64,000 nucleotides of DNA from Maylandia zebra (taxonomy: Eukaryota; Chordata; Actinopteri; Cichliformes; Cichlidae): contig NC_135177.1 of assembly GCF_041146795.1 (NCBI RefSeq), positions 38,155,560 to 38,219,559 on the forward strand. The letters are read 5' to 3'. A program made the translations under genes and the position numbers. Below are positions 286 through 58,348 of the stretch, one piece after another (positions within the stretch are counted from its first letter, which is position 1; every line of letters starts with the position of its first letter). The notes beneath the pieces are model-generated. The model was not told where the DNA came from, did not search any database, and saw nothing but the letters and a program-made list of their open reading frames with translations.

Positions 286-11377
<11,092 letters not shown>

Positions 11378-24362: not shown

Positions 24363-25480
24363 CACATTTTTACAAATTAAATAGTAATAAAATAGTAATA
24401 ATAATAATAAAATATATTAAAATATACAGAGTTGAATATGTGCAAAACAAGTGGCATTTATATACAGTATGGAGTGCATAATGTTGAAGTTCCAGTAGTG
24501 AAGCTGAGGTGTCTATGACGTGTTCAGCAGTCTGATGGCCTGGTGGAAGAAGCTGTCTCTCAGTCTGCTGGTACGGGACCGGATGCTGCAGAACCTCCTT
24601 CCTGATGGAAGCAGTCTGAACAGTTTATGGCTGGGGTGACTGGAGTCCTTGATGATCCTCCCCGCTTTCCTCAGGCAGCGCTTCCTGTAGATGTCTTGGA
24701 GGGAGGGAAGCTCACCTCCAATTATCCGTTCAGAGCACCGCACTACTCGCTGGAGAGCTTTGCAGTTGTAGGCGGTGCTGTTGCCATACCAGGTGGTGAT
24801 GCATCCAGTGAGGATGCTCTCAATGGCACAGTGATAGAAGGTCCTGAGGATGCGGGGGCTCGTGCCGAATCTTTTCAGTCTCCTGAGAAAGAAGAGGCGC
24901 TGCTGTGCCTTCTTCACTGTTTTGTTTGTGTGTACTGACCACGTAAGATCCTCAGCCAGATATACACCAAGGAACCGGAAGCTGCTCACTCTCTCCACAG
25001 CAGCGCCGTTGATGGTGATGGGGGTGTGTGCTTCTCTGCACCTCCGGAAGTCCACTATCAACTCCTTTGTCTTTGCGACGTTGAGGGTGAGATGGTTGTC
25101 TTGACACCAGTGGGTCAGGGCGCTGACCTCCTCCCTGTAAGCCGTCTCATCACCGTTGGTGATAAGACCCACCACTGTAGTGTCGTCCACAAACTTCACA
25201 ATGATGTTGGAGTTGTTAGTGGCTGTGCAGTCGTAGGTGTAGAGTGAGTACAGGAGAGGGCTCAGTACACACCCCTGTGGAGCACCAGTGTTCAGTGTGA
25301 TGGGGGATGAGGTGATGCTGCCCAGTCTGACCACCTGGCGTCTGTCAGACAGGAAGCTAAGGATCCAGCTGCAGAGGGAGCTGCTCAGTCCTAGATCCTG
25401 CAGTTTCCTGTCCAGCTTCGAGGGAACGATGGTATTGAATGCTGAGCAGGTGTTGTTGAACACGAGCATGAATCCGTGTT
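24088..25480 (-). mobile_element. Rex1/Babar-like LINE copy A, 5'-truncated
   Basis: The minus-strand ORF 24513-25469 (318 codons) encodes RT fingers/palm ([45 protein letters not shown]) and the C-terminal thumb region. The catalytic motif reads FVDD. The 3' UTR extends to a 'caaatcaaatcac' terminus at 24088, and a (GT)n tract lies at 24309-24359. The clade name is from memory. Confidence 0.82.
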
Positions 25481-26115
25481 CCTGTTTCTCTAATAAAATC
25501 CAAAATGATCAAAAGAATCCGAGTCTGGAAACCCGCCGACAGCAGGCATGAAGGTCCGCCCCCGCTGCACGCCTCGTGCTCAGAAAAAACTGCAGGGGCG
25601 CAGCTGTGACTGAGGCCTCCAGCCAGCAGGTGGTGCTGTTGGATCGGTCTGACACAATAAAGTTCTCTGCAGTCCTGCGTGGATGAAAGCACACTGTGCA
25701 AAAGTCATGAGCCACCCTCATTTCTTTATATTCTCTATGAGTATGTTTATTAAAACATACAAAACACATGTGATGGTTCAGAATTCAAACGTTTATCAAA
25801 GATCTGTAACATCATAGACTGAGCTGCAGCCGTGACGGAGCCTCCGTCTCACAGGGGGCTGCTGACGCTGTGTTGGAGCTCCTCGCACACGCTGACCATG
25901 ATGTGGCTCCATCGCTCTATCAGTCCCGTTCCTCTGACCTTCATCAGCGTTTCCTCCTGTGAGGCTGAGCAGCAGACGATCGGCTGATTGTCTCTCTGGT
26001 CTGCTGCAGAGTTTTCAGGCCTCACACTTGTGCCGTTTCAGCTCTTTGGGAATCGCCTCTTTGGTGCAAACTTAAAGTTTTATGTCAGACTGTTATCTGT
26101 GCCATTTCTCACAGA
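25481..26115. other. Intergenic, nothing recognised
   Basis: No gene is supported. A 'gcaaaagtcatgagccac' phrase near 25697 recalls Tc1-type MITE ends, but no partner terminus was found. Confidence 0.4.
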
Positions 26116-31600: not shown

Positions 31601-34265
31601 AACCAAGTTTAGGTGGAGTTTATTTAATATTAATTTCTAGTATCAGCTGATGTTTGCTGGAGCCACAGCTGTAAAGCTGCTGGTCATGATGTCGGTTTGG
31701 ATATGTGGTGAGAGGGAAACATGAAGATGAAACCAGCAGATGTCCTTACTGAATCATCAGAGCTGAACAGGTGATGGAGAAACAATTTTCTGTCCCAGTC
31801 CAGCCCTGTATGCAGCTCATCTGCAGTCTGGTGTTACCTACATCTTCCTATTCAGAAGGCAGAATTTCAGAGTTCTGAGTACAATCAAAGCACCACGACT
31901 GCAGTTTTTGTGTTGGATGTAAAAAGCGCACATGACTCTGTGATGTAGGCTAGAATCATGGCAGCAGTCAACGATGGTGCAGGCGTGGGATTTCTTTCGT
32001 GGAAATGTGCACATTATCTTTTCCTTTGTATTGGTAGGTGGCACAGTGCACTGTGGCAAGTAAGCAAGCTAGAAGACTGGCAAAGTTACGGAAGCAACAC
32101 ATTAACAAGAGAAGTCTGAGTAAAACCAAAGTTACTTTCCCTACTAACTAGTTACTTTGAAAATAACGAGTAACTTCAAGTAACTGAGTTACTTTTGATG
32201 GAAGTAACTAGTAATGTAACTAAGTTACTAATTTAAAGTAACTTACTCAACACTGTTAGTAAGTGGCTTATATATATGTAAATATTGTATATATTGTGCT
32301 ATTGTTTATTTCCTGTATTGTCTTTGTTGCTGTTGGTACTGGAGCGCTGTAACCAACATCATTTCCTCTATGGCTCAGTAAAGTATTCTGATTCTGACAA
32401 AGCTCAAAGTCACCAATCAAAGGTGATCAAAATCAATGACAACAATCTTCCAAAAATCAATCAGTGTTCACTCTGTCCTCTGTTCTTTAGCTCCGGTCAC
32501 CAGCCTCACTCTATCGGGTGGAGGCGGAGCTAAGAAGCGTCTGGTGGCACCGTCTCTGAGTCTCACGCTGAACCGCCGTGACTCGAACGATCGGAACAGC
32601 TTCTCTGCAGCCGCACTGTCAGGGACACCAGACGACACACCGTCGCTTGACATCAACCTGGAAGCTCTGGAGACGCCATCGGACAGCGAGACAGGAACAC
32701 TGCCGGACAGCATGCACGACCTGGAGTGGGACGGTGAGATGTGCACGCAGATGGGAAGTAATGTAACCGAGAGAAAAGCAGCTGACCTCTGACCTCTGTC
32801 TCACAGACGACCTTCCTCGGATGGGCAGAGGTGGAGCTGTGGGTGTGGCCAGAAATCCGATGGAGCAGTCCGAAGGTCTGATGGAGCTGGATCAGGTGGA
32901 CAGCAGAGGGCGGCGCTGGAGGCGGTTCTGCATCTCAGGACACGAATACCATGTCAACATGAGCGTCCTGGAGCCGTACCTGCAGGTCCTGTCGCATGGA
33001 GGTCAGAGGTCACACACCCACCAAACTACCTGTAATACACCTGCAGGAGCTTCCAGGTCTCACACACACCTGAAAAACACCTGTAACACAAATAAGATGA
33101 TACACTGATATTACACCTGCAGGAGCGCCACACACACTCACCTGTAACACACCTGCAGGTGCCATGGAGCTAACACTGTGTTGTATTTGAAATTGCACCG
33201 TGACAGCTCTGCCTGTGGTTGGTTGACAGGCTACTTTGGAGACGGGATGAACGCCATCATCCTCTTCACTTCTTGTTACCTGCCGGAGAACACAGTGGAA
33301 AACTACGAGTATGTCATGGAAAACCTGTTCAGGTGAGTTTGGGCCCAGAAATTGTGGTCAAATGCTAGCAGGTGTGAGCCACGCCTCCTTTATCACCTGT
33401 CTTCCCCTGCAGGTACATTGTGGGGACGCTGGACCTGATGGTCTCAGAGAATTACCTGCTAGTCTACCTGTGCGCCATGGCTCCCAGAAATAAGCTGCCC
33501 TCCATCAAATGGCTTCACCAGTGCTACACGTCCATCGACAGGAGGTACAGCATCCCCTCTCAGCACCGCTCTGAGGGGTGGAGCTTCTTTACTTCCTGTT
33601 CCTTCAGTAACTGTGACCCCTGGCTGCCCCTGGGTAGGTCCGGGATGGGCGTGAGGTTCTGGGGGCGCTCCGTCTCTGGGCTGGGGCCCGGGCCGGGCCT
33701 CGGGGGCTTGGGTCCTGGTTGGTGTGTTGCCGGGGTTGTGGGCGGGTGGGTGCATGGGGGCCCAGCCCTGGAGCAGGGTGCCGCCAGTGCATCGAGCCAC
33801 CTGGGGGGCTCTTCAACTGGTGGGGAAGATTGTCACATCTTGCAGGAGCTTTCCTCTCCTCAGGGGCTCTCTCTACAGGAGGGGGAGATACAGGAGAGGT
33901 GGAGGAAGATCTCAGCCTGGGTGTTTATTGTCTTATGTAGTCTGGAAGATGAGTGGATGGTGGGGTGGGTGCAGTTTTCTCTGTGGTGGGGTTGGGTAGA
34001 CTGTCCTGGGCTCTGTGGGGCCGGGAGGCGCTGCTGCGCTGGGCCCCGGTCTGGATGGGCCTGGGCCCCCTTTCCCTGGCGGGTCGCGGAGTATGGGGGT
34101 ACCTACTGGGGTCAGCGGGGGAGCTGGCCCCAGGGAGGGGTCACTTGCCCCTCCCTTCCTTCCCTCCCCATCTCCAGCTGCCTCCCTCTTCCCGCTCCAT
34201 CACAACCACCCACACATGCAGGACCTTGGAGTAGGGGTATGTCACCAGGGTGCAGAGGAGGCTAC

Positions 34266-34301
<36 letters not shown>

Positions 34302-37112
34302 TGTCCCCTTCTGGCTGCCTCTGCCTCAATTTTATCCCACAACTTAGACATTCACATTACTCACACTCTCATTACACATACATATAGGATCTTGGGGGTG
34401 GGCACGCTACACGGAGTCCAAATTACCATCAGGGTGTACACCCCACCCCTGGCGTCGTTGCCCACCTCTCAATGTTAAATACACGTAGACATTGAGGGCC
34501 AGCAGGAGGGACCATGCGCTTACCTGCTGCTCTCTGGCAGGTAGCTCCAAGCCCTCCTGGGTTTTAAATGCACCTTAGAACACACATGCATCAACACTAC
34601 AATGAGCGGGTGGAGGGAGGTTTGGAGTCTTCTCTCACCCCCATTCTCTGCGACCTGCTGGAGCGGGGGGGCTAGGAGGAGGAGTTGGCCGTCCGACTGC
34701 GGTCTGGAGTGTGGGGCCTCCCTGCTGCTGCGGAGTCGGGGCGGTCTGCCTCCCCCCACCGCAGGGAAAAGGGTAACACCACCTGGGTCTGGGTGCAGTT
34801 CCCCCCTCCAGGGGCGGGGGCACCTAGACCCGGTTTGTAGAGTACGCTTGGGGAGTGTGATCGTGTGTACAGCGTCTCTTTATGTCTGTCTCCACGTTGG
34901 TTGAGTGTGGAGTAAGTGCATATGAGAGCATGAGGGTGGGAATGGATGTTTGTGTCTGTGTGTGCCTGTATGTCTGTGTCTATATGTCAGGTTGGGTGTC
35001 AGGCGCCACCTCTCTGGGGACATCTCAGGCCCTCCAAGGTTTGGAGGCCTATCTCCCCCTACCACCACTTCCCCTGCCAGTGGCGGACTCCCTCAGACAT
35101 CGGTGCGTTGGTGGTTCTTTGTGTCTGGGGGTGGACATCCAGGTACACACCGGCTCACTCCTTGGCGGCCGCTTATCGGGGCCTGGAGCCTGGGGCTCGC
35201 TCGGGCCACTTCGGAGGTGGGGTGCCCCCGGCCTCTCGGCCTGGGGCTCGGTCACTCAGGCACGGCTGGCTGCCGGTGGAGCTCACGGGCGCGTCACTGC
35301 AACTCCCCCTGGCTTCTGCTCCGCGGCTGCTGAGTGAGCCCTCATCTGGGACTCTCCTCAGCTCTTTCTGGGACAGTGGCGCGGCTGCCCCTCTGTTGGT
35401 CTTCCTTGGTCTCTTGTGTTCTGGGGGCCTCTGGATGTCTGGAGTTTTGATCTCCTCCATACCTGCTTCATGCCCTGGAGGACGGGGCTGTGGCCCCCCC
35501 ACACCCTCTAGCAGATCATTACATGAAGGAACCTTTTAAAAACAAGCGCGTCCATGCTCACAGGTGTACACACGGGTGATCACACCCACAAACTACACCC
35601 TTTTTGGCTCCTACCTCAAAGCACACTGTTCTGTTGATCTTATGTGCTGCACAATAATGTTTAATATTTAGTATTTACTGTCATATTCCCATATATCATT
35701 GTGATGTTGTTTATTCTATTACTCTTGTTCTCTTCTGCTTGCTTTCTTTTTTCTTTCTCAGCAGGTGATCCAGGTGATTGATATATGCATTTTTTTTCTC
35801 TGCCCGTTCTGTTGGTTTTTGTCTTTTGCCCTTCTCCCCCGTCCCTCTTCTCAGCTGTTTCTCTTTCCCTCTTTCTTTCTCCCCTTCTTTCCCCCAGTCA
35901 AGTCTGTCCCGTATTCAGTAAGTGAAAATAAAATAAACAATAAAAGGTGAATCAAATGGACCATTATGGCAAGGCTGGGATGGTCAATTTGGTAAAGTAA
36001 ATCCGTTGGGCATCTTTCTTTGCCTTAAAAAAGAGGAAAAAAAAAAAAGTAACTGTGACCCCGTAGACGAGTAGAGCTTCTCATAACTGCTCGCTGTGTC
36101 TGCTCCGACCTGTGGACCATGCGGCGAGATGATCTTTCAGTTCAACTACCTGCAATTTTGCTTTATTTATGTAGCACGAACAGTCGCATCGGGGCACCTA
36201 ACAATCATGTGACCCCCTATGAGAAGGCACTTTGGCGACAGGAAGTAACCTCCAGCAGTACCAGGCTCAGGGGTGGCCATCAGCCGCGACCGGTGTGGGT
36301 GAGAGGAGGAAGACGGGATATTCTGAATGTGAGACGAGCTAAGGTGAAAACAAGGCGCGTTACGCTAACCATAGGCAAGAGCGCCAACGGAGAGCTCCAC
36401 CCCCATCACAGCCACAACAAAAATGACCCCTCTATTCATCCATTTGCAGTGTCAGGGTCACGACCTGATTTTCACACGCTGCGTGGCGTGCAGCGCCGAG
36501 ATCCTATTTGGAGCATCCACTCGAGTCAGACTTCCTGTTTGGAAACAACCAACCCACCAACTCTGCAATCCAAGATGGCAGCAGTGGGGGTTCAACACCC
36601 CCCGCCTCTCGCCATGTCACCTTCTGCTAATAAAAGCTAATAGCTGGCTGTGGCTCAACGACAGCAGGTGATGGTGCTGACGTCGGGTCAGACTCCGTCA
36701 TGACGTCTTTAATCTGATTGATCACGCTCGCTGTGTAAGAGACGCTCTGATTGGAGCGCTGCTCTGTGTGGTCATGATGTAATCATCAGTTGCCTTTGCT
36801 GTTGGGAGATGATGTCGGGGATTCAGCCATGTTTCCAGCTCTTTGGAGGTCATCTTCTTCCTCCTCCTCATCACAGCTGTGCATGCTTACAACCACAGCA
36901 GCACTTTAACTCGTCTGTCATACGTAATGGCGTTACCGCGACCAGCTGATGGTCACGGTGGCCTTTGAAGTGTGTTTAGCGCACAAGGACATGGGGGTTC
37001 ACTGTCCTCATGTCTCCGCAGGCTGAAGAAGGACCTGAAGGGGCTGCTGGTCGTCCATCCCGCCTGGTACATCAAAGCTCTCATCACGCTGGTCAAACCT
37101 TTTATCAGGTCA

Positions 37113-37185
<73 letters not shown>

Positions 37186-40100
37186 GTACATTTGGTTTTT
37201 CTGGACCCTGGTTGGCTGCAGTGCATTCCTACCACCAGAAGGTGGCAGTGAAGTACCAAGAAGCTGAAATCTAGCAGGGCCTCTGTCAGTGAGCTGCACT
37301 TTGACTCTGTATGGAGTCAAAGTGCAGCTCACTGGATAAATCACTGTGTGCACGTTCACGGTGCAGCATCTAATGAGTCTTTACTTGGGATGAGGGAAAG
37401 AAATTAGACTAACAGACTAGTGTAAAAGTAAGAAATGCTCAGAAGTTTAGTTCAAATTCAAATTCAAATTCAAATTCAAATTTTATTTGTCACGTACACA
37501 GTCATACACAGTACGATATGTAGTGAAATGCTTGGACAACTGCTCGTGACCTAAAGAAAACAAAAAAGGAAAAGGCTATGAATAAGATAGGAAATAAATA
37601 TGAAAAATTAAAAAGGGTAAATTTAACTAGGAAGGAATAAAATATAAATTAAGGTTAAAAATGAAATAACTGTACAACACAAATTAGAATGAAGGGTAAA
37701 TTTAACTGGGAAGAATAAGATAAAATATATAAATTAAAGTTGAAAATAAAATAACTGTACAACAAAATACACAATATAGAACTATATAAGAATGTATGAA
37801 GAAATATAAATAAATATATACACAATAACAGCAGCTGTACAAGTATTAACTGGAAATGAAGAATATAGTGACCAGTGTTGTGCAAAACCAATGTCCAGAA
37901 AGTCCAGTGTGTGTAAGAACTGTATGTGTGGGTCAGTACTGTGTGGTGGTGTGATTGAGAGACCGTATCGCCTGCGGGAAGAAGCTCCTCCTCAGTCTCT
38001 CTGTGTTGGTCTTCAGGGAGCGGAATCGCTTTCCTGACCTCAACAGAGAGAACAGTCTGTTGTTGGGATGGCTGAGGTCCTTCACGATCTTCCTGGCCTT
38101 GGTCCAGCACCGCCTGCTGTAGATTGAGTGCAGGTCAGGGAGCTCGGAGCGGATGGTGCGCTCAGCTGACCGCACAACCCTCTGTAGAGCTCGTCTGTCC
38201 TGCATGGTGCTGTTCCCGAACCAGGTTAAGATGTTTCCCGCCAGGATGCTCTCTATGGTGCAGGAGTAAAAGTTCCTGAGCACCTTGGAGGGCAGTTGGA
38301 AGTCTCTCAAGCGTCTGAGGTGGTAGAGACGCTGTCGGGCCTTTTTCACCACGGTGTTGATGTGACAGGACCATGACAGGTCCTGCGTGATGTGAACTCC
38401 GAGGTATTTGAAGCTGTCCACTCTCTCCACTGGGCACTCGTTGATGACGGGGGTCTGGTAGTTCCTCTCCTGCTTAGTGCTGAAGTCCACTATCAGCTCC
38501 TTTGTCTTACTGACGTTTAGAAGGAGGTTGTTCCTCTGGCACCAGTTCTCCAGATTCCTAATCTCCTTCAGGTAGGCCGTCTCGTTGTTATCAGAGATCA
38601 GGCCCACCACGACGGTGTCGTCAGCAAACTTGATGATGGTGGTGGAGCTGGTAGTGGCCACACAGTCATATGTGTACAAAGAGTACAGCAGGGGGCTCAG
38701 AACACACCCCTGGGGGGCTCCAGTGCTGAGAGTGGTGGAGGCTGAGACATGTCCGCCCATCCTTACTGGCTGTGGTCTGCCAGTTAGGAAGTTGGAGATC
38801 CACTGACACATAGATGAGCTGAGTCCCAGATGCTCCAGCTTGGTGGTGAGTGTGGAGGGAATTATGGTATTAAATGCAGAGCTGTAGTCTATGAAGAGCA
38901 TTTTAACATAATTCCCCCTTCTAGTGTCCAAGTGAGTGAGTGATGTGTGGAGGAGATGAGAGATGGCATCGTCTGTGGAACGATTTGGACGGTAAGCGAA
39001 CTGTAGTGGGTCCAGTGTGTCTGGTAGTGAAGAAATGATGAAGTCTCTGACCAGGCGTTCAAAGCACTTCATCACTACTGAGGTGAGGGCTACAGGGCGA
39101 TAGTCATTGAGAGAAGCAGGGTGGAAAATGTCAAAAACTAACAACAAAGGCATTTTAAAATATTTATCACATTCATGATCAGAGGTGGCAAAAGTCCAGA
39201 CATTCAGTGTTTAAGTAGAGAAGAGTTATTGTCAAAAGCACATGTACAGATCATACACAGTGAAACTGCAGGGCTCCCACAGTCCTCAGTGTTACACTAA
39301 ACAACATAAAAGATAAAAGTCTTATACACACAACAGTGTCCAACACAGTCTGAGTGTTTTTGGGAAAGTGGGAGTGTGGGAGTCAGTGAAGGGCGGTGGT
39401 TCAGAGTTTTGGGGGGGCGGGGTCGACAGAGCAGGGAGAGAGTAGATGTCCTGGAGTGAGGGCAGAGAAGCACCCACGATCCTTTCTCTGCTCTCGCTCT
39501 CCTCAGTTTGAGGAGGAAGTAGAGTCGCTGTTGGGCTTTACGGACCACGATGCTGTTCTTTGACGACATCAATATGAAGTACATATACTAGTGTTAAAAA
39601 ATACTGCAGTAAAAGTTCAAGTATGGATTTAAACTTAAGTGAAAAAGTACAGGCTCTGACAGTTACTCAGAGTAAGAAAGTAAAGAGCAGCTCCTTGAAG
39701 GACGTTTTTACTGAACCTCCTGTTATATTAATGTAATAAAGTAATAATAGATGGAGATGAGCAGGTTTTCCCAACGACGATGCACCACCTGGTGGCAGAT
39801 GTCTACATAACATTTAAGACCCAATAATTTACTGGCGTTAGATTAAACGGCTGTCATGTCTGTTGCTGACGATTAACACATCGCCAATCTTCGTAATTCT
39901 TTCGATCTTGAAGAATTCTTCCAAGAGTCTGTGGTGCACGCTGGTGAAACCAGAACCTCACAGAACTGCACCGCCTGATGGAAACATCGGTCAGCACAAG
40001 GCGCCATCTCAGTGTCTTAAAGAGTGTTTGATGTTATGCAGATGTTGGATGTTGCAGCAGAAACACATTCTAAAGCTCAGACCTGAGCTTTAGAACAGGA

Positions 40101-42818
40101 CCCCAAGTCTTCCCCCTCGGTTAGAGCGGCCTCCTGTGGTGGATCTGGTCATTACACAGATAAATCTCAGTGAGAAATCTTACAGGTTAAACTATCCCAG
40201 GTCCTGATGTGTTGTGTTAGCTTGATGTAGTTGGTCTGTCTCACCTGTGACCTTTGACCCTGTTCTCCACAGCGATAAGTTCAGCAGGAAGATCCGCTTC
40301 ATTCAGAGTCTGCAGCAGCTGTCCGAGCTCATCCCCACAGACCAGCTGCAGATCCCCGACGCCATCCGCCAGTAAGGCCCTCTGACTCCAGTCTGACTCC
40401 ACTCTGACTCTGACTCCACTCTGACTCCAGTCTGACTCTGACTCCACTCTGACTCCACTCTGACTCTGACTCCACTCTGACTCCAGTCTGACTCTGACTC
40501 CACTCTGACTCCACTCTGACTCTGACTCCACTCTGACTCCAGTCTGACTCCAGTCTGACTCCACTCTGACTCTGACTCCACTCTAACTCCACTCTGACTC
40601 TGACTCCACTCTGACTCCACTCTGACTCTGACTCCCCTCTAACTCCACTCTGACTCTGACTCCACTCTGACTCTGACTCCGCTCTAACTCTGCTCTGACT
40701 CCACTCTGACTCTGACTCCACTCTGACTCTGACTCCACTCTGACTCCACTCTGACTCCGCTCTAACTCTGCTCTGACTCCACTCTGACTCTGACTCCACT
40801 CTGACTCCACTCTGACTCCGCTCTAACTCTGCTCTGACTCCACTCTGACTCTGACTCCACTCCAACTCCACTCTGACTCTGACTCCACTCTGACTCTGAC
40901 TCCACTCCAACTCCACTCTGACTCCAGTCTGACTCCACTCTGACACTGACTCCACTCTAACTCCACTCTGACTCCACTCTGACTCCACTCTGACTCTGAC
41001 TCCCCTCTAACTCCACTCTGACTCCACTCTGACTCTGACTCCGCTCTAACTCTGCTCTGACTCCACTCTGACTCTGACTCCACTCTGACTCTGACTCCAC
41101 TCCAACTCCACTCTGACTCTGACTCCACTCTGACTCCAGTCTGACTCTGACTCCACTCTGACTCCACTCTGACTCCAGTCTGACTCCAGTCTGACTCCAC
41201 TCTGACTCTGACTCTGACTCCACTCTAACTCCACTCTGACTCTGACTCCACTCTGACTCCACTCTGACTCTGACTCCCCTCTAACTCCACTCTGACTCTG
41301 ACTCCACTCTGACTCTGACTCCGCTCTAACTCTGCTCTGACTCCACTCTGACTCTGACTCCACTCTGACTCTGACTCCACTCTGACTCCACTCTGACTCC
41401 GCTCTAACTCTGCTCTGACTCCACTCTGACTCTGACTCCACTCTGACTCCGCTCTAACTCCGCTCTGACTCCACTCTGACTCTGACTCCACTCCAACTCC
41501 ACTCTGACTCTGACTCCACTCTGACTCTGACTCCACTCCAACTCCACTCTGACTCCAGTCTGACTCCACTCTGACACTGACTCCACTCTAACTCCACTCT
41601 GACTCCACTCTGACTCCACTCTGACTCTGACTCCCCTCTAACTCCACTCTGACTCCACTCTGACTCTGACTCCGCTCTAACTCTGCTCTGACTCCACTCT
41701 GACTCTGACTCCACTCTGACTCTGACTCCACTCCAACTCCACTCTGACTCTGACTCCACTCTGACTCCAGTCTGACTCTGACTCCGCTCTAACTCTGCTC
41801 TGACTCCACTCTGACTCTGACTCCACTCTAACTCCACTCTGACTCTGACTCCCCTCTAACTCCACTCTGACTCCACTCTGACTCTGACTCCGCTCTAACT
41901 CTGCTCTGACTCCACTCTGACTCTGACTCCACTCTGACTCTGACTCCACTCCAACTCCACTCTGACTCCAGTCTGACTCCACTCTGACTCTGACTCCACT
42001 CTAACTCCACTCTGACTCTGACTCCCCTCTAACTCCACTCTGACTCCACTCTGACTCTGACTCCGCTCTAACTCTGCTCTGACTCCACTCTGACTCTGAC
42101 TCCACTCTGACTCTGACTCCACTCCAACTCCACTCTGACTCTGACTCCACTCTGACTCCAGTCTGACTCTGACTCCGCTCTAACTCTGCTCTGACTCCAC
42201 TCTGACTCTGACTCCACTCTGACTCCAGTCTGACTCCACTCTGACTCTGACTCCACTCTAACTCCACTCTGACTCTGACTCCACTCTGACTCCACTCTAA
42301 CTCTGCTCTGACTCCACTCTGACTCCGCTCTGACTCCACTCTGGCTTGGACTCCATTGTAACTCTAATCTGGCTCTAAGATAACTTTGATGATCGATTGA
42401 ACACACAGATTAAATACAAAATGCAAGAAAACGCTTATAACACCTCACAAAAAGGCTAACAGTGGCAGCTGGGTTAGCTGCTACTTCTGTATGTTTTAGA
42501 CCTAACCCATACTGACCTTTGACCCCTATTCACCTTAACAGCTGGTGATAACAGCTTTTTCTTATTCCTTCTGTTTGACTAACTCCTATTTTACTGAGTC
42601 ATACTTCCTGTATCATTTCCAAATTAAAAGCCCTCCATCAGTTTGCATTGAGCCTTTTATTGAGAAACGATTGCAGAAATGTCACGTGATCTGTGCCGTG
42701 AGGAAGACGGAGAGAAGACGAAGACGCTCACAGAGACGTTAAGGCCTGCTGATGTTGGCGCGGTTCATGAATCCACTTCCTGTCTCTCTGCAGGTTTGAT
42801 GAGAAGCTGAACAGATGA
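28610..42818 (+). CDS. bnipl: BNIPL-like BCH-domain protein
   Basis: This belongs to the BNIP2/BNIPL/caytaxin family of BCH (CRAL-TRIO-like) scaffolds that bind small-GTPase regulators. Exons: 28610-28653, 30470-30550, 30818-30861, 32491-32733, 32807-33001, 33230-33332, 33413-33544, 37022-37108, 40273-40371, 42794-42818. They total 1053 nt (350 residues plus stop), all GT-AG and in phase. The acidic N-terminus has the family signature [18 protein letters not shown], then [22 protein letters not shown] and DLEWDDDLPR. The BCH domain runs from about residue 170 to the end ([68 protein letters not shown] is interrupted only by the intron at 37109; the spliced reading is FISDKFSRK). The wording and the prune1 neighbour favour BNIPL over BNIP2 or ATCAY. 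Confidence 0.92.
31273..32255. mobile_element. Chimeric hAT-like element (copy 5)
   Basis: The termini CAGTGTTGGGAGTAACGCG and, inverted, ...TTACTCAACACTG are flanked by a perfect 8-bp duplication TTAGTAAG (31265-31272 and 32256-32263). The interior from about 31428 to 31815 matches parts of the different element at 45395, including its terminal 'tcccagtccagccctg' phrase. It appears to be one hAT inserted or recombined into another. It lies in bnipl intron 3. Confidence 0.88.
33621..36047 (+). mobile_element. 2.4-kb GC-rich retroposed sequence with poly(A)
   Basis: It is flanked by a perfect 15-bp direct repeat AGTAACTGTGACCCC (33606-33620 and 36048-36062) and ends in an A-rich tail (36037-36047). 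These are signs of LINE-type target-primed reverse transcription. The first ~1.9 kb is strongly G/C-rich with a 33-C run (34267-34299). The 3' part is pyrimidine-rich, then A/T-rich with AATAAA-like words near 35927-35945. I see no RT or endonuclease motif; the longest internal frame (34946-35539) is low-complexity and unrecognised. It could be a LINE-mobilised non-coding RNA copy or a nonautonomous element. It lies in bnipl intron 7, 76 bp past the donor. Confidence 0.82.
34267..34299. repeat. Poly(C) run of 33
   Basis: An uninterrupted C tract inside the 33621-36047 element. Its length may be inexact in the assembly. Confidence 0.9.
36140..36310 (-). repeat. L2-like LINE 3' tail / derived SINE
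   Basis: A diverged member of the 868-1130 family ('aatcatgtgaccccctatgag', 'ctttggcgacagg'). Confidence 0.6.
37118..37182. repeat. (CA)n microsatellite at a bnipl splice donor
   Basis: About 32 CA units begin 9 bp after the donor GTCAGC at 37109. Confidence 0.95.
37287..37334. repeat. Perfect 21-bp palindrome, 6-nt loop
   Basis: Left arm 37287-37307 and right arm 37314-37334 are exact reverse complements around the loop TGTATG. It lies in bnipl intron 8. Confidence 0.9.
37448..39165 (-). mobile_element. Rex1/Babar-like LINE copy C with long open RT frame
   Basis: The minus-strand ORF 37933-39153 (406 codons) encodes most of an [65 protein letters not shown], the catalytic FADD in [13 protein letters not shown], and the C-terminal region to LNHTTTQY. 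The 5' part with the endonuclease is missing. The 3' UTR ends at a (CAAATT)n tail, 37452-37483. The unbroken frame suggests a young insertion. It lies in bnipl intron 8. Confidence 0.88.
39200..39590 (-). mobile_element. Rex1-like LINE 3' fragment (copy D)
   Basis: Minus-strand 39297-39584 encodes a short thumb-region piece ([15 protein letters not shown]) followed by UTR sequence similar to that at 45060-45385 ('cctcagtgttaca'). Confidence 0.6.
40378..42380. repeat. 2-kb minisatellite (ACTCTGACTCC)n, higher-order period 631 bp
   Basis: The array is built from 11-bp ACTCTGACTCC units with frequent 6-bp CTGACT insertions and variants (ACTCTAACTCC, CCGCTCTAACT, GACACTGAC). Rare variants recur exactly 631 bp apart: TGACAC at 40941 and 41572, and CCGCTCTAAC at 41041 and 41672. 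This shows larger blocks were duplicated. Because the unit lacks stops on the minus strand, long Ser/Glu/Gln/Val-rich frames arise there by chance. It begins a few bases after the bnipl exon 9 donor at 40372. Confidence 0.95.
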
Positions 42819-55800: not shown

Positions 55801-58348
55801 TCTCCCTCATAGCTGTGTGATTTTTCCCTGTGGCTCCTCGTGCTTTAGTCTCCCCAGTTTAAGTTTAGTACTGTTTTTTGTTTCACTTTATGCCAGCATT
55901 AAAGCTGTGTTTTTGAGTTTACGTTTCGTCTCCGTGAGTTTGCGTTTGGGTCCTTCTCCTGCCTGCCACACAGCCGAACCATGACAGAAATGGGTCTATT
56001 ATGGTATGTTATTGTCACGGGTTGCTCTGAGGATCCACTCGCAGGACTCCGGAGTGCGTTGTAACAGAGACCGTTTATTCACAAAAATCTTCACCAAGTG
56101 TATTTACAGGCAGTGCGAGGACAGTGCTATATACAAGATGTGCGAGGACGGGTTCCAGGGCTCCAGGGAAAACAAGGGGATCACACACACGCTCACGCCA
56201 ACCTCTCTCCGCTAGTGACCAGCCACCTCTTACACGCTCCACACGGGGAAACACGGGGACGGGTCCGGGGAATCTAGAACAGAGAGACAAATGTTACTTT
56301 CTGAGGCGGAAGTGTGGGAAACTAGGGCTCGACGTGTACTGACAGGAGTCTTCACAACAATCCAGCGTTGAACAGCTGATCTCCTCCTTCTGATATACCA
56401 GCTGGTCTGATGAGGCCCAGGTGTGCATGATCCGGGAGGGCGTGGGCTGAGGGCGTGAACCTGCCATGAGTTCCGCCCCGGCAAAACAGGGGAGGGGGAG
56501 AGAGATTGCTGATCAGTGCCTTGCCGACCCCGCAGGTCGTGACAGTTATAATGTACACGGTATGAAGTATGTTGTGAATATTCTATAACTATAAGTATGT
56601 ACAGGCTGTAGTGAGTACAAGCTATGTACAGGATATGAACAGGATATAAATATGAAAAACTATACAGAATATGAAATAAATAACTTTACAGAATCTGAGA
56701 TATACAGCTATACAGAAATGGGAACTATGCAAGTTGTAAACAGTTGTAGGATTAAAGATTATTGAATGTACAGAATGATTATTTACACAGAGCTATACAG
56801 TAGTGCAGTTAAGATAAGTGAGGGTGTAGATAGTTTCTACAGAGGCTATATAAAGTGCTAGTGGTTGTGAGTGGTGGTTCAGTCCATGTTATTATTGTGT
56901 TTGAGGGTACAGTTGTGCCCTCGAGGCCTGGAGTTTGACACCTGTGATATAGAGTGAAACAATGGTTTCACCCAAAACCTGATAATGACCTACATGCTTT
57001 TGGGTTTTTTTACAATGGTTCATGTGATGAAGCACATGAAGCACCTGGGACTTTTTACCATTTGGTTTTAGAACTGAACACGCTTCTGGGATGAAATGTC
57101 TCAAACAAGGCTAACACACCAACACAACAACCACTGTGCTTACACAGGCCACGGAGAGCAGCCACTGGTTGCAGGACTCCGACCTCAGCCAATGGCATGA
57201 TAATCGGGTTCAGCAGGAGCCAGTAGTGGGGAAGGGTAGAGCCCAGAGGTCGGGAGCTTTGGGAACATTAGCCTGAAGTTTTACGTTATTTTAAGTAACA
57301 TTGTTGTAAATTTGTTCCATCAGGCACAGGACGACACTCCCTCTGGGCGCTTGCCTCCTACATCCCAGGCTCTGCCCACTTCCCAGAGTTCACTGTTGTT
57401 CTGATGTTGGATGACATCCAGGTGGGATACTATGACTCAAAGGTCGACCGGGTGATGAGGGCGAGCACGGCATCTGACCACGAAGCGGAACTCAACCTGG
57501 GCCAGGAGCCCGTGACTGTGCTACGAGACATTTACTCCAGCATGAAGAAGAGGCTGAATCTGGTGAAGCATCGCTTTAACCTGACCATCGATGGCGTTCA
57601 TGTCCAGCAGAGGGTAACGGGCTGCGAGGTACTGGAGGACGGCCAGCCGGCACTCATCATGTTCAGAGACGGCTCCAACGGGCAGGACGCCGACAGCCTG
57701 CTCTACAACATGACCCACTTCACGTATGCTGTCAGGGAAGGCTGGGAGATCCAGTGGGACGCCCTAAAGAAAACATCCTTCCAGATGCTGTATTCAAACA
57801 TATATCTACCGTTCTGTGTGCGGACGCTCCAACACTTCCTGGAGCGCGAGAAGCACCTTGTGATGCGAAGGGTGAAGCCTCGACTCCGCTTTATCACCAG
57901 GCAAGTGGTGGGCGGGGCTCAGGTCACCTGCCTGGCCACTGACTTCTACCCTCGCCACATTAACCTGAGCCTGCTGCGGGACGGCCAGCCCGTGGACGAA
58001 GGCGAGCTGCGCATCGGCTCGGTGCTGCCCAATGGGAACGGCCTCTACCAAGTGAGGAAGACATTGATGGTCGACGAAAAGGAGCTGCAGAGGAAACACA
58101 ACTACACCTGTGAGGCGTCTCACCTGAGCCTGGACAACCGGCTGAGGGTAAACTGGAGGGCGGAGTCATCGAACTCTCACAGAGTTCATTCCATCTCGCC
58201 TCTGGTCTTCCTGCTGCTCGCTGCCGTCCTGCTGCTGCTGGTGCTGAGGAGGAGGAGAAGGAGGAGGAAGGAGAGGTCAGAGGGCGTGGCCACAGAAACA
58301 CAGGAGCAGGTGGGAGAGAGAGAGCAGTCAGACGACCTCGTGACGTGA
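52843..58348 (+). CDS. Nonclassical MHC class I-like gene, single main exon
   Basis: Exon 1 (52843-52900) encodes a hydrophobic leader (MFVLQLMLMSLLL...). Exon 2 (57324-58348) encodes everything else. Together they are 1083 nt, 360 residues plus stop, joined in phase. The alpha1/alpha2 platform contains CEVLEDGQPALIMFRD and the second Cys in YLPFCVRTL. The Ig-like alpha3 contains VTCLATDFYPRHINLSLLRDG and YTCEASH. A hydrophobic segment (SPLVFLLLAAVLLLLVL) is followed by a run of basic residues and a short tail. N-glycosylation sequons are NLT, NMT, NLS and NYT. The classical KW pair of the alpha2 helix is absent, so it is nonclassical. The lack of introns between the domains is unusual; I recall intron-poor members in the teleost L lineage, so that lineage is my best guess. 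Confidence 0.9.
53228..53807 (-). mobile_element. Solo LTR-like unit (580 bp, intron 1)
   Basis: The plus-strand right end is ...CCATGACA; the left end is CGTCATG (TG apparently mutated to CG). A 5-bp direct repeat GATTT flanks it (53223-53227 and 53808-53812). The sequence ends in a 'gcctgccacacagcc' phrase on the minus strand, shared with the unit at 55233. Confidence 0.7.
53935..54390 (+). mobile_element. RTE-like LINE fragment (RT C-terminal part)
   Basis: Frames spell ...LDNYGMGVNMKKTEYLEGD, FRYLCSVISYNG and CDTKMPDRL, typical of an RTE RT C-terminus, with several frame breaks. A perfect palindrome (54212-54306) interrupts it. Confidence 0.6.
54212..54306. repeat. Perfect 45-bp palindrome, 5-nt loop
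   Basis: Arms 54212-54256 and 54262-54306 are exact reverse complements around ATCTC. Confidence 0.95.
54735..54990 (+). repeat. L2-like LINE 3' tail / derived SINE
   Basis: Well-preserved plus-strand copy of the 868-1130 family, ending in an 'aaattgaaattg' tail. Confidence 0.78.
55067..55232 (-). mobile_element. LINE 3' end with (TAGAA)n tail, split by LTRs
   Basis: A (GAATA)n tract precedes 'caactttattgtcattgcaa', a LINE-type 3' end on the minus strand. Its continuation appears after the two LTR units, from about 56545 to 56880. Confidence 0.55.
55233..55986 (+). mobile_element. Solo LTR-like unit (754 bp)
   Basis: Starts TGTCACGATCC and ends CCATGACA (TG...CA), with a perfect 5-bp duplication GAAAT (55228-55232 and 55987-55991). 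ATTAAA lies near its 3' end. It is related to the unit at 53228. Confidence 0.85.
56023..56544 (-). mobile_element. Solo LTR-like unit (522 bp)
   Basis: TGTCACGG...CGTGACA termini with a perfect 5-bp duplication GTTAT (56018-56022 and 56545-56549). On the minus strand AATAAA lies near the 3' end, as expected for an LTR polyadenylation signal. A different family from the unit at 55233. Confidence 0.85.

Follow-up and report, generated by a model that had tools for sequence, protein, structure and literature searches.

We examined a 64,000-nucleotide stretch of the Maylandia zebra genome (contig NC_135177.1; C11:38155560-38219559 in our searches; hereafter, the window), in which a GC-rich insertion lies in an intron of a bnip2/bnipl-like gene. 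With a probability of about 0.92, this insertion is a 5′-truncated copy of a young and abundant long interspersed nuclear element (LINE) of the L1 clade, ending inside the ~2.6-kb 3′ untranslated region (UTR) of that element. The insertion lacks a reverse transcriptase (RT) because truncation left the 3′UTR only, which removes a candidate "new retroposon class" from consideration. The unusual property of the element is the long GC-rich module of its 3′UTR, which, between the two copies compared, has diverged less than the 3′ terminus.

The insertion is bounded by an exact 15-bp direct repeat, AGTAACTGTGACCCC, at 33606-33620 and 36048-36062, the left and right copies of a target-site duplication (TSD). 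The body between them (33621-36047, 2,427 bp) is in sense orientation, with all its features on the plus strand, and closes with an A-rich tail at 36027-36047, immediately 3′ of which the right repeat is situated. When 33301-36400 was shuffled 300 times with dinucleotides preserved, two of the shuffles contained an exact repeat of at least 15 bp with a spacing of at least 500. The recurrence of random 15-mers (605/20,000) was not used, as a tandem array at 40.4-42.3 kb probably dominates it. The repeats and the A-rich end are as an earlier note on this DNA described them, and its proposal of target-primed insertion by a LINE is supported by these marks together with the scattered 5′ ends of related copies and a second copy with its own TSD (see below).

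Relatives of the insertion were found in a sample of contig C1, where five of 29 10-kb stretches chosen by position (L015, L020, L021, L027 and L030; four queries, E 1e-6 or better) contain pieces of the family. L022 is a 30th stretch, added since the L021 copy extended past its edge. The sampled copies carry two types of tail: type A is found in the window copy, in L020 and in L030 (95% over 80 bp), with a more diverged form in L015 (83% over 107 bp), and type B in L022/L021 and L027 (95.7% over 209 bp). Compared with L020, L030 and L015, the window copy is missing the final ~43 nt in front of the A-rich tail.

The type-B copy L022/L021 connects the insertion to an RT. The first base of the body aligns with L022:8236, 242 bp downstream of the stop codon of open reading frame 2 (ORF2), and body 1-1794 is 93.0% identical to this copy. 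At the 5′ junction, there is a 2-nt CC microhomology, as CC precedes the start of homology in both the TSD and L022. The L022 frame is open over 5360-7990 and is closed by a TAG stop at 7991-7993, its LINE part comprising ~840 amino acids from about 5471. Pfam RVT_1 is matched at 1.1e-40, and in PDB the top hit is the LINE-1 ORF2 protein (E 4.3e-113, chain residues 407-1181; a chain that we take to be human), with the next kind of protein at 1.3e-18. Since there is no A-run of at least 6 between the ORF2 stop and L022:10528, near the 3′ end, no separate LINE 3′ end intervenes between ORF2 and UTR. A 1,000-bp probe, half of it the last 500 bp through the ORF2 stop and half the 500 bp of UTR that follow, yielded 1,642 first-look candidates in the genome; all 40 that were scored, L022 included, match it over 1-1000 at 99-100%. 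In type-B copies, ORF2 and the GC-rich UTR are one element, and the 3′ sequence of the insertion is thus continuous, in other copies, with an L1-clade ORF2. In L022, the truncated L1 ORF2 is abutted by the pol frame of a long terminal repeat retrotransposon at about 2264-5483 (−), which we assume to be of the Gypsy type.

Searching with the ORF2 protein gave 17,808 first-look candidates. The 54 places scored (L022 included) all show 99-100% identity over 840 residues and no internal stops, and at 34 of them the open frame has exactly 1259 residues. Because these places are nearly identical and stop-free, the L1 family looks, from its sequences, very recently active. The earlier note's suggestion of an undescribed nonautonomous family is not supported, since ORF2 copies of the homologous LINE without internal stops occur in this genome and the insertion most likely lacks RT by 5′ truncation. 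The same note accepted that a recognised consensus with reading frames would undo its proposal; the genomic L1 copies, with their type-B tail, provide the equivalent of such a consensus in substance.

The whole genome (962 Mb, 63 contigs) was also searched with the insertion itself (33606-36062) as the query. There were 3,898 first-look candidates, of which 40 were scored, giving 41 listed rows; with the window omitted and the two pieces of one copy on contig C15 taken as one, these represent 39 places. They are not exhaustive (the L020 copy is absent from them), and their identity to the query is 95-98%. Query base 2421 (window 36026) is reached by 37 of the 39, and the window sequence beyond it is private among them. 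At the other end, where starts are the ends of local matches, 22 places have their start at query base 14 and another 16 at as many separate points in the range 98-732, the remaining place being the C15 copy, which has an internal deletion. Variable 5′ ends with a common 3′ region are expected for truncated copies of the L1 clade. Outside this genome, searches found no copies in plasmid and phage collections and no exact patterns in viral and GTDB contigs; fish genomes as such are not part of these collections.

Several observations weigh against a truncated L1, the first being the start shared by 22 of the 39 listed places, a pattern that would likewise arise if the family stood alone and its 5′ end were fixed at that base. 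Such a family would be nonautonomous and L1-derived, consisting of an ORF-less RNA of GC-rich module and type-A tail that begins at the window junction and is mobilised in trans by type-B or other L1 elements. It would also agree with the 30 sampled stretches, none of which showed a type-A copy that carries ORF2. However, query base 14 is two bases inside the left duplication, and because the first bases of the query are host TSD, any copy longer than the query is expected to start there, and the 16 scattered starts also count against a fixed end. Moreover, at the 40 scored probe places, type-B sequence runs through the same point into the 242 nt of further UTR and ORF2, and over its first 150 bp the body of the window copy shares 98% identity with type B. 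We consider such a family improbable, but put it no lower than that because the ORF2 link is seen only with the type-B tail.

This restriction of the ORF2-UTR join to type-B sequence is the second adverse point; we infer that the source element of the type-A copies had the same layout. Third, the target site in the window, TTC/AGTAAC, differs from the canonical TTTT/AA. Fourth, a TSD is clear in two of six copies, the window copy and L020, and probable in one, L015. The L020 copy, 96.3% identical over body 213-2406, carries its own 14-bp TSD, TAAAAGGTGACCCT, at a TTTT/AAAA site, so that both clear duplications (15 and 14 bp) have the length typical of L1 and accompany an A-rich 3′ end. The short L015 copy has a probable, imperfect duplication (10 matching bp adjoining a difference in a T-run). 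No clear duplication was detected at L030, L027 or L022/L021, where the best candidates are A-rich near-matches of 9-10 bp. Finally, the longest stop-free frame of the body has 285 codons, a length attained in four of 200 shuffles when the whole body was shuffled and in six of 200 for its GC-rich part. In L015:5800-6400, an L1 3′-end copy is apparently inserted into sequence that we take to resemble a Tc1/mariner transposase gene, and its tail shows a palindromic rearrangement.

The 285-codon frame is not read as coding because the period-3 signal is flat in the body (0.4-1.5); control frames from the window gave 4.1-8.4 (a major histocompatibility complex (MHC) frame) and 1.4-10.2 (an RT frame whose first two windows are low). 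With this flat signal, and with no Pfam match in the body in six frames (stops treated as X), we rejected a coding relic. We likewise rejected a short interspersed nuclear element (SINE), for which a tRNA-, 5S- or 7SL-derived head would be expected: Rfam gave no match at gathering score within the window, and there is no tRNA-like gene in 33500-36200. The earlier note was thus correct in seeing neither RT, endonuclease nor SINE promoter in the body, and correct also about its composition, as GC is 0.58-0.65 over 33621-35530, falling to 0.40 up to 36026, and a run of 33 C occupies 34267-34299 (the same position holds 8 C in L020 and 14 in L022). A bacterial promoter scan was uninformative for this locus. 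CpG observed/expected is 0.30-0.44 by segment in the insert (33621-36026) vs 0.52-0.53 in the flanks, a deficit that may reflect methylation of the family.

A non-coding body with an A-rich 3′ end and a TSD would also be left by retrocopying of a host non-coding RNA or of a single spliced source gene (a processed pseudogene), the former of which the earlier note had suggested. Few copies and a spliced source would then be expected. Instead, the insertion has its 3,898 first-look candidates and the tail alone has 1,485, while the body is homologous to an L1-clade 3′UTR and its module physically continuous with L1 ORF2. We therefore rejected this origin, to which we attach next to no probability.

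The truncated-L1 reading directs attention to the 3′UTR itself. It contains a 1.9-kb non-coding module of ~62% GC, present in the window at 33621-35535, and the composition changes at the stop codon, from 37% GC in ORF2 (34.8% A) to 65% in the following 242 bp. The module is ~93% identical between the window copy and L022/L021, whereas the last 0.5 kb of the two copies is far more diverged. In 150-bp bins of a MAFFT alignment, identity is 87-98% up to 35570 and then 73%, 58% and 54%, and 30-bp bins show an abrupt drop at about 35536 (27/30 to 19/30). These tail values depend on the alignment, BLAST giving 77.9% over body 1795-2127, and the comparison of module and tail was made with one fully aligned type-B copy. 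The AT-richer terminal segment of the window copy (the type-A tail, 35536-36026), strongly diverged from type B, matches L020 at 96-99% per 150-bp bin, and along the overlap of the two copies to 36020 such bins show 94-100%. Near the type-A 3′ end, a hairpin is predicted at 35951-35993: the fold of 35950-36026 has z = −2.73 (1/200 shuffles as stable), and that of the longer 35940-36046 has z = −2.32 (5/200).

It is possible, though we would not favour it, that the module was once foreign sequence which was captured into the L1 3′UTR and later exchanged between L1 lineages, a history compatible with truncation of the window copy. Equally tentatively, we suggest recombination or template switching as the route by which L1 subfamilies whose 3′ tails have diverged might have passed the module on as an exchangeable cassette. 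Both the abrupt rise in GC at the ORF2 stop and the contrast between a well-conserved module and diverged tails, with its drop at about 35536, would follow from such events. However, a similar picture would arise if the module evolved more slowly or the tail fast, and the tail contrast itself varies with the alignment and comes from a single type-B copy aligned in full. Outside this genome, a source sequence was neither found nor looked for. With its sharp change from AT to GC at the stop, and with a module that, among the copies compared, has diverged less than the 3′ end, the family allows ideas about where an L1 3′UTR comes from and what it does to be tested.

For the window copy itself, we envisage target-primed reverse transcription. 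L1 ORF2p would have begun, at a nick in the bnipl-like intron, to reverse transcribe an L1 mRNA, starting at the A-rich 3′ end of the mRNA. Synthesis would have halted within the long 3′UTR, after ~2.4 kb and with 242 nt still to go to the ORF2 stop, so that the insert received no coding sequence. Second-strand cleavage ~15 bp away would then have produced the 15-bp duplication. This sets a trap: when the 3′UTR of a LINE is long, GC-rich and non-coding, 5′-truncated copies of the element resemble orphan retroposons without RT.

Coding matches to a BNIP2/BNIPL-type protein were found at 33229-33333, 33411-33545, 37008-37112 and 40271-40372, the last two with a BNIP2 C-terminus as the query. Since the flanking exons match a BNIP2-type protein, the insert lies within an intron and in the sense orientation of the gene. 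The exon 5′ of the insertion was placed at 33411-33543 (+; coding match, with the donor set by eye) and the next exon 3′ of it at 37008-37112 (+; coding match, approximate ends). The bnipl intron named in the earlier note is therefore confirmed as an intron of this gene type, but the body begins after 77 intron bases and not 76. Directly 3′ of the last exon match, 11/28-bp units (CTCTGACTCCA) form a tandem array that extends over ~2 kb (40380-42343). The window also contains two LINE RT frames (Pfam RVT_1) at 37933-39210 (−) and 24513-25508 (−), both presumably Rex1-like, the former being only 25% identical to the L1 ORF2 of L022, and, at 57299-58348, an open frame in which MHC class I and C1-set immunoglobulin domains are matched.

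The element resembles fish L1 (teleost L1-clade LINEs, of which Swimmer 1 is an example) in its AT-rich ORF2, in having LINE-1 ORF2p as the closest PDB match, and in its ~15-bp TSD, A-rich 3′ end and 5′ truncation, but differs in the ~2.6-kb 3′UTR with its 1.9-kb GC-rich module. With human LINE-1, it shares the ORF2p homology over PDB chain residues 407-1181 and the marks of target-primed reverse transcription; human L1, however, has a short 3′UTR. SVA and HAL1, which are nonautonomous riders of L1, are also inserted without RT and with an L1-type TSD, but the insertion in the window appears to be a piece of an autonomous element.

The ORF2 of fish L1 has 36.3% GC (PMC7140322) vs 37% here. TSDs are ~15 bp long for human L1 inserts vs ~5 bp for zebrafish ZfL2-1 in DT40 cells, and microhomology is frequent at 5′-truncated L1 junctions (PMC4245944). 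The stable hairpin predicted near the type-A 3′ end recalls the stringent-type LINEs with a 3′ hairpin, UnaL2, ZfL2 and SART1 (PMC3747384, PMC5135761). However, the clade here is L1 and not L2 or R1, and the type-B tail differs. A literature search with pieces of the insert sequence gave no match, and no description of this family appeared in the portions of the teleost and fish LINE literature that were covered (including PMC7599744; papers that mention Swimmer, such as PMC4746887 and PMC8550402, lie outside this coverage). GC-rich non-coding parts are described as typical of L1 5′UTRs (PMC5872511), whereas in the element described here such a part is the 3′UTR. An exchanged module, if such it is, would be the 3′-side counterpart of the 5′UTR turnover of mammalian L1.

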